Part shown: piece by piece, positions 286 through 20,480 of the stretch | Layout: each line of letters begins with the position of its first letter | Numbering within the stretch: position 1 is the first letter of the stretch | Origin: Nitrospirae bacterium GWC2_57_13 | GTDB lineage: Bacteria; Nitrospirota; UBA9217 | Assembly: GCA_001805055.1 (NCBI GenBank) | Contig: MHDZ01000040.1 | Coordinates: 1-37,168, forward strand | Direction of reading: 5' to 3' | Length of the DNA stretch: 37,168 nt | Notes under the pieces: generated by a model | Seen by the model: only the letters and a program-made list of their open reading frames with translations | The model's database searches: none | What the model was told of the DNA's origin: nothing | Translations under genes and position numbers: made by a program

Positions 286-320
286 CATTCCGTATTCCGC
301 ATTCCGAACTCCGCACTTCT
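286..320. repeat. Heptad array, about five 7-bp units
   Basis: Five consecutive units in one 7-bp phase lie between hisS and mlaD: CATTCCG, TATTCCG, CATTCCG, AACTCCG, CACTTCT. The last unit touches the mlaD stop codon (TAA at 322-320 on the minus strand). The period matches the array at 1143-1233 but the unit sequence differs. Confidence 0.7.
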
Positions 321-1120
321 TATGGTTTTCTCAGCAATTTCCACGGATGCTTCTTCACATCCTCCGTGGCATCCTTCAGGTTCTTCGTCATCTCCTGGAT
401 ATTCTCGAGCGTGGCATCAACGTTCTTGCGATTCTCACCGACCAGTTTATCGCTCTTATCGAGCAAGGTCTTCAGGCTTGCAGCGCTTTCATCAAGCTTG
501 GTGATCAGATCAGGAAGCCTCTTCAGTCCTGCGGCGACTTCTTCCTTGTTGCCCGTCATGACCTTGACATTTCCCGTGACCTCTTCAAGATTCCGGACCG
601 TTGCCTTGAGCGATCTTGCAATGGCTGGATCGCCGAGCATGCTGTCCAGGTTGTCAGCGATACTCTTGAGCTTCAGTGCCACAGAATGCCCGATCTTGGT
701 GAGGTCTTCCAGCTTGAGGGATTCCTCGCCCATGATAACGGCGTCATCGGCCAGCGGCCTGGCATTCGGAGATCCGGCGCTCAACTCTACATACTTGCCG
801 CCCACAATGCCGAGGGTCTTGATCGCGGCCCGCGTATCCTCCTTGACGACCGTGCGCTGATATACGCTCAGTCTGACCTCGACCTTGTCTCCATACTCGG
901 AAGCAACGCGCACTTCCTTCACCTTTCCGACCTTTGTGCCGGAATACCTGACGGGCGCGTTCTTTTCAATGCCGTCGCTGTAGCTGAAAAGCACCCGGAC
1001 CTCCCGCTTCTTGCGGAATATGCTCTCAAGATCGCTGACCGTGAACACCATCACCGTCAGGACCACGAATGCGGTGAGCAGGAACGCTCCCGCGCGTATT
1101 TCGGAACGCTGGTACTCCAT
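320..1120 (-). CDS. mlaD: MlaD-family (MCE domain) substrate-binding protein
   Basis: Periplasmic, membrane-anchored MCE-domain subunit of an Mla-type ABC system that moves phospholipids between the inner and outer membranes. From the chosen ATG the protein is 266 residues: a short cytoplasmic start, one membrane helix (about residues 10-30), the MCE domain (about 38-115, with PVRYSGTKVGKVKEV and LGIVGGKYVELSAG), then a long helical C-terminal half rich in heptad-like leucines. The start at 1120 is chosen because AAGAGGTG stands just upstream. An in-frame start at 1159 would add 13 residues encoded partly by the 7-bp repeat array, which looks spurious. It lies downstream of mlaF and mlaE on the same strand. 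The longer helical tail resembles MCE proteins of non-enteric bacteria rather than the short E. coli MlaD. Confidence 0.9.
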   Translation of the reverse strand: MEYQRSEIRAGAFLLTAFVVLTVMVFTVSDLESIFRKKREVRVLFSYSDGIEKNAPVRYSGTKVGKVKEVRVASEYGDKVEVRLSVYQRTVVKEDTRAAIKTLGIVGGKYVELSAGSPNARPLADDAVIMGEESLKLEDLTKIGHSVALKLKSIADNLDSMLGDPAIARSLKATVRNLEEVTGNVKVMTGNKEEVAAGLKRLPDLITKLDESAASLKTLLDKSDKLVGENRKNVDATLENIQEMTKNLKDATEDVKKHPWKLLRKP

Positions 1121-1142
1121 ATGCACCTCTTGTGGCACAACG

Positions 1143-1233
1143 CATGGAGCATGGCGCATAGAGCAGGAACCTCTCTGCCCTCTGCCCTCTGCCCTCTGCT
1201 CTCTGCTCTCTGCCCTCTGCCCTCTGCCCTCTG
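1143..1233. repeat. Heptad array, 13 in-phase 7-bp units
   Basis: Read on the plus strand from 1143, units follow each other without a break: CATGGAG, CATGGCG, CATAGAG, CAGGAAC, CTCTCTG, three CCCTCTG, two CTCTCTG, three CCCTCTG. The array fills most of the gap between the mlaF stop (1238) and the mlaD start (1120). The first three units form a different sub-family (CATRGMG) from the CYCTCTG units but keep the phase. Resemblance to the heptanucleotide STRR repeats known from cyanobacteria is by analogy only. Confidence 0.9.
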
Positions 1234-1237
1234 CCCC

Positions 1238-2898: not shown

Positions 2899-3005
2899 AT
2901 TCTAATCCGGACAATCCGGAACAAAGTCCGCCACCGCCGCTCCCCCGGCCCGCTTCCTATTTTTGTTTGATCCGGGGCGGGCGTGTCAGACATTTTCTTG
3001 AAGAA

Positions 3006-3042
3006 AGGGATAGTCCCCTTAAACCAAAGGGGGACTGTCCCT
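3006..3042. repeat. GGGACAGTCCCC-type palindromic element (single copy), possible terminator
   Basis: AGGGATAGTCCCCTT (3006-3020) faces AAGGGGGACTGTCCCT (3027-3042) across a 6-base loop. The stem has one wobble pair and one bulged base. The same core recurs in triplicate at 8297-8407. It lies just after the STAS gene stop (3059, minus strand), where it could end transcription, but no clear T-run follows on that strand. Confidence 0.8.
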
Positions 3043-8296: not shown

Positions 8297-8407
8297 ACAG
8301 GGACAGTCCCCCTGAATGCAAAGGGGACGAAGACAGGGACAGTCCCCCTGAATGCAAAGGGGACGAAGACAGGGACAGTCCCCCTGAATGCAAAGGGGAC
8401 TGTCCCT
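8297..8407. repeat. Tandem 36-bp triplet of GGGACAGTCCCC palindromic element
   Basis: Three copies begin at 8297, 8333 and 8369, exactly 36 bases apart, each running ACAGGGACAGTCCCCCTGAA then TGCAAAGGGGAC. In the last copy the right arm is completed to GGGGACTGTCCCT. AGGGACAGTCCCC thus pairs perfectly over 13 bases with it across an 11-base loop. The array fills the gap between the histidine kinase stop (8409) and maf start (8273). It shares its core with the single copy at 3006-3042. Confidence 0.93.
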
Positions 8408-14773: not shown

Positions 14774-14794
14774 TCAACTATCGACTATCGACGC
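14774..14794. repeat. Short heptad array upstream of purB
   Basis: Three in-phase units TCAACTA, TCGACTA, TCGACGC sit in the gap before purB. They are too few to prove a repeat alone but keep the 7-bp habit seen at 286-320, 1143-1233 and 20446-20480. Confidence 0.4.
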
Positions 14795-20445: not shown

Positions 20446-20480
20446 ATTACATCAAATTTGAAATTTTCAATTTTAACTTG
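20446..20480. repeat. AT-rich heptad array between mqnX and mqnE
   Basis: Five in-phase units: ATTACAT, CAAATTT, GAAATTT, TCAATTT, TAACTTG. The sequence is AT-rich, unlike the CCCTCTG and CATTCCG arrays, but the 7-base period is the same. It ends where the mqnE leader hairpin begins. Confidence 0.65.

Follow-up and report, generated by a model that had tools for sequence, protein, structure and literature searches.

The 7-bp array at positions 1143–1233 of the window, which is the whole 37,168-nt stretch of DNA analyzed here, is real and lies far beyond chance. Taken as a whole, the reading that we favor, and consider probable rather than firm, is that it belongs to a dispersed extragenic element of the REP/STRR type, which is copied between genes and whose arms grow by slippage. 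The array between mlaF and mlaD would then be one copy of a non-coding family-A element, family A being one of at least four families of period 7 that the genome carries, every one with a fixed word of its own.

The array between mlaF and mlaD

The sample is a Nitrospirota MAG with a draft genome of 3.3 Mb, of which 2.44 Mb (74%) was analyzed; the window is its contig 40, and at the mla locus its nearest named relatives are Nitrospirota MAGs. The genes mlaE, mlaF and mlaD run on the minus strand and are followed by hisS, the N-terminus of which was recognized by Pfam (5.2e-08). The mlaF-like ABC ATPase (1238–2023, minus; an ORF matching Pfam ABC_tran at 1.8e-28) ends with a stop codon at 1238–1240 that adjoins the array, and the mlaD-like gene was placed at 320–1120 (minus; gene model, Pfam MlaD at 7.8e-19). 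The mlaD start at 1120 is clear of the array, is conserved in homologues, and has an RBS-like AGAGGTG just upstream. In the transcribed (minus) sense, the array thus begins directly after the mlaF stop codon and finishes ahead of the mlaD ribosome-binding site.

The minus-strand layout of this array is (GCAGAGR)9 – 11 nt – (CYATGCN)3. An earlier note on this DNA had described thirteen heptads at 1143–1233, strictly in phase and belonging to two sub-families, CATRGMG and CYCTCTG. The split into thirteen works, except that CAGGAAC, counted as the fourth "heptad", is a linker and no unit, and the layout indicates that the supposed sub-families are the same word on opposite strands: a single family, GCAKRGN, which appears as GCATRGN on the plus strand and GCAGAGN on the minus strand. 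The GCATRGN arm at 1142–1161 (plus) comprises the 3 units GCATGGA GCATGGC GCATAG, located by TRF (GCATGGA, 3.4 copies at 1142–1165) and by the word scan; it forms the 3' arm (CYATGCN) on the minus strand, and the same arm occurs in 47 genomic inverted pairs. The strandless linker of 11 nt at 1162–1172, defined by linker comparison, reads GCAGAG-AGGTTCCTGCT-CTATGC on the minus strand, and the linker consensus of family A is near AGATTCATACC. The GCAGAGN arm at 1173–1234 (minus) is lengthened to 9 units and was detected by TRF (CTCTGCC, 9.1 copies at 1173–1236, 96% match, score 114), by the word scan, and by a lag-7 score of 55, compared with zero arrays of 14 or more in a Markov-2 shuffle of the 2.44 Mb. 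The phase is not strict across the switch, since the linker measures 11 nt in 15 of the 47 genomic pairs and 7, 9, 10, 15, 16, 17 nt and other lengths in the rest. An in-phase switch of sub-families is hence ruled out in favor of a strand flip around a linker of variable length.

Period-7 arrays across the genome

When arrays with a score of at least 12 were counted in the 2.44 Mb, 163 were found at lag 7, compared with 18 at lag 6, 39 at lag 8, and approximately 0.5 in shuffles; lags 14 and 21 also exceeded their neighbors. This strong excess, together with the recurrence of arrays in other intergenic regions, bears out the autocorrelation check that the earlier note had proposed. By our home-made gene model, on which all intergenic calls rest, 138 of the 163 lag-7 arrays are intergenic, and the arrays at lags 3 and 6 are nearly all coding. 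Lags 8–10 gave smaller intergenic sets with words of their own (CTTCYYAN, CACGAAGN, CACGAAGNN, and CACGGATNAA).

A looser threshold gave 231 arrays, and clustering with no preset word assigned 188 of them to four words: TTTNCAA (58), GARTGCG (44), GCAGAGR together with GCATRGN (73), and CTGWCTN (13). Some 86% of the arrays lie in intergenic DNA. We refer to GCAKRGN as family A, GGARTKC as family B, and TTTNCAA as family C. In TTTNCAA, six of the seven positions are fixed at 0.84–0.98 and the remaining one is fully degenerate. On reversed sequence, families A, B, and C lost almost all of their matches (14 vs. 171 and 4 vs. 89 in the forward reading). The word patterns used for the reversed-sequence and inverted-pair counts were picked after the data had been seen; the lag, clustering, neighbor-unit, and stop-codon tests were not guided by words.

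Other arrays had been listed in the window as keeping the period with quite different units. That given as YATTCCG at 286–320 is real at about 286–317: it is a family-B array (GGARTKC, 287–317, minus, approximately 4 units) lying 2 nt past the mlaD stop and before hisS, and was recovered by TRF (score 39 at period 7), the lag-7 analysis, and the word scan. The one placed at 20446–20480 shrinks to a short family-C array of 3 TTTNCAA units (20457–20477, plus) flanked by genes for an amidohydrolase and a CofH/MqnC-like protein; the word scan found this array, which falls below the TRF threshold. Of the short arrays, that at 14774–14794 corresponds to 2.3 exact copies of ACTATCG at 14777–14792, in intergenic DNA, and no lag-7 array was found at 2024–2109. 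Elsewhere in the genome, two of the longest GCAGAG arrays (L110:12765-13008 and L137:735-876) contain N runs, so the assembly may understate how many copies the living genome has.

Repeats of other kinds were also seen. A dispersed period-9 element of the same genome (CCTTTGCGT CCTTTGCGAG CTTTGCGAG; e.g., L137:5487-5515, L094:7316-7344, and L045:7413-7441) has a conserved flank near AACCTGGACTTAAGGGTTT and often occurs as inverted pairs approximately 42 nt apart. The window itself holds ACAGGGACAGTCCCCCTGAATGCAAAGGGGACGAAG as three perfect 36-bp tandem copies with a diverged copy 5 kb away (8297–8400 and 2994–3035), and a separate palindromic repeat of the GGGGACAGTCCC type was recorded with it.

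Architecture and folding of family A

Inverted pairs of GCAKRGN were of one polarity, 47 "+-" vs. 0 "-+", with a modal linker of 11 nt and similar linker sequences. Their arms are unlike, one being the GCAGAG arm that lengthens and the other the GCATRG arm, and in 33 tandem gene contexts the GCAGAG arm was turned toward the upstream gene 25 times (25:8). The family-A element can accordingly be modeled as an imperfect palindrome of approximately 50–190 bp, (GCAGAGN)n – ~11-nt linker – (NCYATGC)m. Elements also nest, as in a family-A element within a period-8 element. For family B, the word scan of the analyzed genome gave zero inverted pairs within 200 bp, so that the palindrome model cannot be extended to every family.

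Most family-A copies fold more strongly than shuffles as RNA, with a mean z-score of −2.65 over 35 elements and −3.53 for the mlaF–mlaD element. The arms pair with a regular mismatch (GCAGAG vs. CTATGC), so that these values do not prove a conserved RNA stem. The mlaFD transcript is predicted to carry an imperfect hairpin immediately after the mlaF stop codon, which could alter mRNA stability or the translational coupling of mlaF and mlaD. A search of Rfam 15 at the gathering score, covering the window and four contig slices with arrays, returned only a tRNA, and no known RNA family was thus matched to the array.

Placement at gene junctions

Arrays of periods 7–10 occupy approximately one-fifth of the intergenic regions, at a density of 0.30 per kb in divergent regions and 1.11 per kb in tandem ones. 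Fifty period-7 arrays start no more than 9 nt past the upstream stop codon, where 28.2 were expected with the RBS zone excluded (0 of 3000 permutations reached this number), and where a gap left 60 or more free nt the figures were 26 and 9.1. The same test gave no excess for periods 9 and 10. By word, stop-codon abutment was found in families A, B, and D and was absent in family C. Such placement is consistent with copies persisting where they would do little harm, namely past stop codons and off promoters and ribosome-binding sites.

Same junctions, other words in relatives

A ten-gene block common to up to eight relatives has arrays at corresponding junctions, a few nt past the stop, with differing words. 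At the mlaF–mlaD junction, the word is GCAGAG in the window, GGAGTTC in L184, GGATTGC in L186, and GGAGTGC in L191, with no array in L188; at the mlaD–hisS junction, it is GGARTKC in the window, CAAATTC in L184, GGATTKC in L186, and AGTTCAG plus AAGTACC in L188. Period and place are therefore conserved at orthologous junctions while the word changes. That the 7-bp period is kept while each lineage has its own words suggests an underlying process that favors period and position, with a replaceable word. The remark in the earlier note that the period is kept while the sequence differs thus holds both within the genome and between species.

Three relatives that are 95–97% identical (L187, L189, and L190) differ in a family-B array by exactly one heptad, a clean 7-bp indel seen at one locus. 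An inverted period-10 element of approximately 169 bp (ACCACAGATGAACACGG ... ATCCGTGTTTATCTGTGTTCATCCGTGGT; L187:2936-3168) stands at the stop codon of a HATPase/STAS gene junction in two of these three genomes and is absent in the third.

Within the phylum, 31 of 246 genomes carried the B word. The C word was present in 16 of 118, one genus from a different family reaching 158–276 matches in each genome, and the A word in 7 of 118, most of which belong to the family of the window genome; reversed-sequence controls were near zero. Family-B copy number was 0 and 33 in two species of one genus (G006 and G010). Such swings inside a genus are a mark of dispersed elements. The small vocabulary, the word-specific spread, and the common architecture (an inverted pair of one polarity with a similar linker) also speak against the view that free sequence at a fixed period excludes a spreading element.

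Origin of the arrays

Ordinary slippage, in which heptads, as units that the replication machinery favors, grow in place out of chance seeds, is a doubtful general explanation, though several observations agree with it: the rise of lags 7, 14, and 21 above their neighbors, the long and homogeneous GCAGAGA arms, the raised identity of adjacent units (0.71 vs. 0.42 in family A and 0.58 vs. 0.42 in family B), and the indel of exactly one heptad that separates close species. In the passages of PMC4679880 and PMC4692102 that cite it, Mrazek's polymerase-footprint proposal for heptanucleotide repeats points the same way. Against these stand the origin of 188 of 231 arrays from four words, the inverted pairs of single polarity with a similar linker, and the word-specific spread across genera. 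Moreover, neighboring TTTNCAA units share the variable base in 20% of cases vs. 26% at random and often occur in an order beginning TTTGCAC, which indicates that the arrays do not in general come from slippage. The few words, the neighbor-unit test, and this unit order rule out pure slippage as the whole story; of the earlier suggestion of slippage, the shift of unit number by exactly 7 bp stands, and slippage alone cannot account for the TTTNCAA family.

It seems unlikely that the arrays are tandem sites for a regulator that binds DNA or RNA, paired like operators and with the word skeleton read by the protein. The six fixed and one degenerate position of TTTNCAA, the paired inverted layout, the stop-codon placement and polarity tied to transcription, and a precedent among the Geobacter metallireducens motifs described in PMC2700814 would suit such sites. 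A copy number ranging from 0 to 33 within one genus is unlike a conserved regulon, however, and the differing words at an orthologous junction and the depletion in promoter-bearing divergent regions likewise disagree. It is similarly improbable that a period-7 process builds or inserts arrays right after stop codons with a lineage-exchangeable word, phage genomes included. Still less credible is a dedicated period-7 machine that builds arrays unit by unit just past stops on chromosomes and phages alike, with a lineage-specific word. It would explain the constancy of junctions and period across species with different words, and the stop abutment that occurs at period 7, including on viral contigs, and not at 9 or 10; yet no enzyme or template was found, and ordered units with similar linkers better fit the copying of ready-made elements.

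Under the preferred reading of a dispersed element, whole elements would spread between genes through such copying, and the family-A arms would then gain or lose whole 7-bp units through replication slippage, as supported by the homogeneous GCAGAG arms here and the clean 7-bp indel in the family-B array of close species. No copying enzyme was found: the four Y1_Tnp (Y1 transposase) matches in the genome had no arrays in the flanks examined, which speaks against a RAYT-driven REP element. Neither an exact empty site nor a target duplication could be demonstrated for a heptad element.

Relation to known repeats

To our knowledge, an excess of heptanucleotide repeats in bacterial genomes has been on record since 2007 and has no settled cause. 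This Nitrospirota group separates the ingredients, namely a fixed period, few exchangeable words, an inverted layout, and post-stop placement. Related species at the same junctions provide natural before/after comparisons, by which slippage, mobility, and selection become separately testable.

The nearest kinds are heptanucleotide repeats and the paired motifs of Geobacter and, by behavior, REP elements; a search of literature text for the exact array strings gave no relevant match. The heptanucleotide SSRs or STRRs of cyanobacteria and GGGNATC of Xanthomonas and Nostoc are mainly intergenic with a 7-bp period (PMC4692102). The present arrays share that period, the intergenic bias, a degenerate unit position, and length and sequence variation among related genomes, and some inverted pairs were reported for the Xanthomonas repeats (PMC4692102). 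The comparison with STRRs is sound as an analogy: tandem 7-bp units occur in many mainly intergenic copies (138 of 163), and whole-unit length change between related genomes was seen at the L187/L189/L190 locus. In contrast to those repeats, several words coexist here, the linkers of family A are alike and its polarity is fixed, and the arrays adjoin stop codons; the words, too, are different from GGGNATC and TAACTGA. The TAACTGA direct repeats of marine Beggiatoaceae are likewise heptamers in short tandem sets, intergenic and patchy across taxa, but they are one word located directly upstream of start codons (PMC4679880), whereas several words occur here and the stop side is favored and the start side avoided.

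Gmet_H4 and the class 1–3 "global regulator binding sites" of Geobacter metallireducens are, in the part of PMC2700814 that describes them, also multicopy tandem repeats of 7–9 nt; classes 1–3 form opposite-strand pairs with variable spacing, and their function is only predicted. Their words differ from ours, and stop placement, word exchange, and slippage, analyzed here, are not analyzed in that part. REP and BIME sequences are dispersed extragenic palindromes, a share of which lies within 15 nt past stops, with a possible effect on translation or mRNA stability (PMC12306157). Our elements resemble them in all these respects, with the multicopy extragenic palindrome found for family A only (47 inverted pairs, mean fold z −2.65). 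They differ in having heptad arms, which the 20–40-bp REP palindromes lack (PMC12306157), and no link to Y1 (RAYT) was found.

Phages and plasmids

Plasmids and INPHARED phages, searched as carriers of the mlaF–mlaD element, gave no match. A family-A element was observed in frame within a phage tail-fibre J gene (L242:8697-8765; also L255 and L259), where the segment is about AQSAERRAQSVTPCTMPYAPC and has no clear counterpart in distant homologues; homologues without the in-frame element exist, with alignments too loose to fix its ends. The four-unit GCAGAG pattern occurred in 33 IMG/VR stretches, some of which showed the inverted layout of family A inside clear phage (structural) gene clusters. 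Of the family-A-like phage arrays, 8 of 29 adjoined a stop codon, compared with 4% by chance, and one phage array began 1 nt past the stop of a portal gene.
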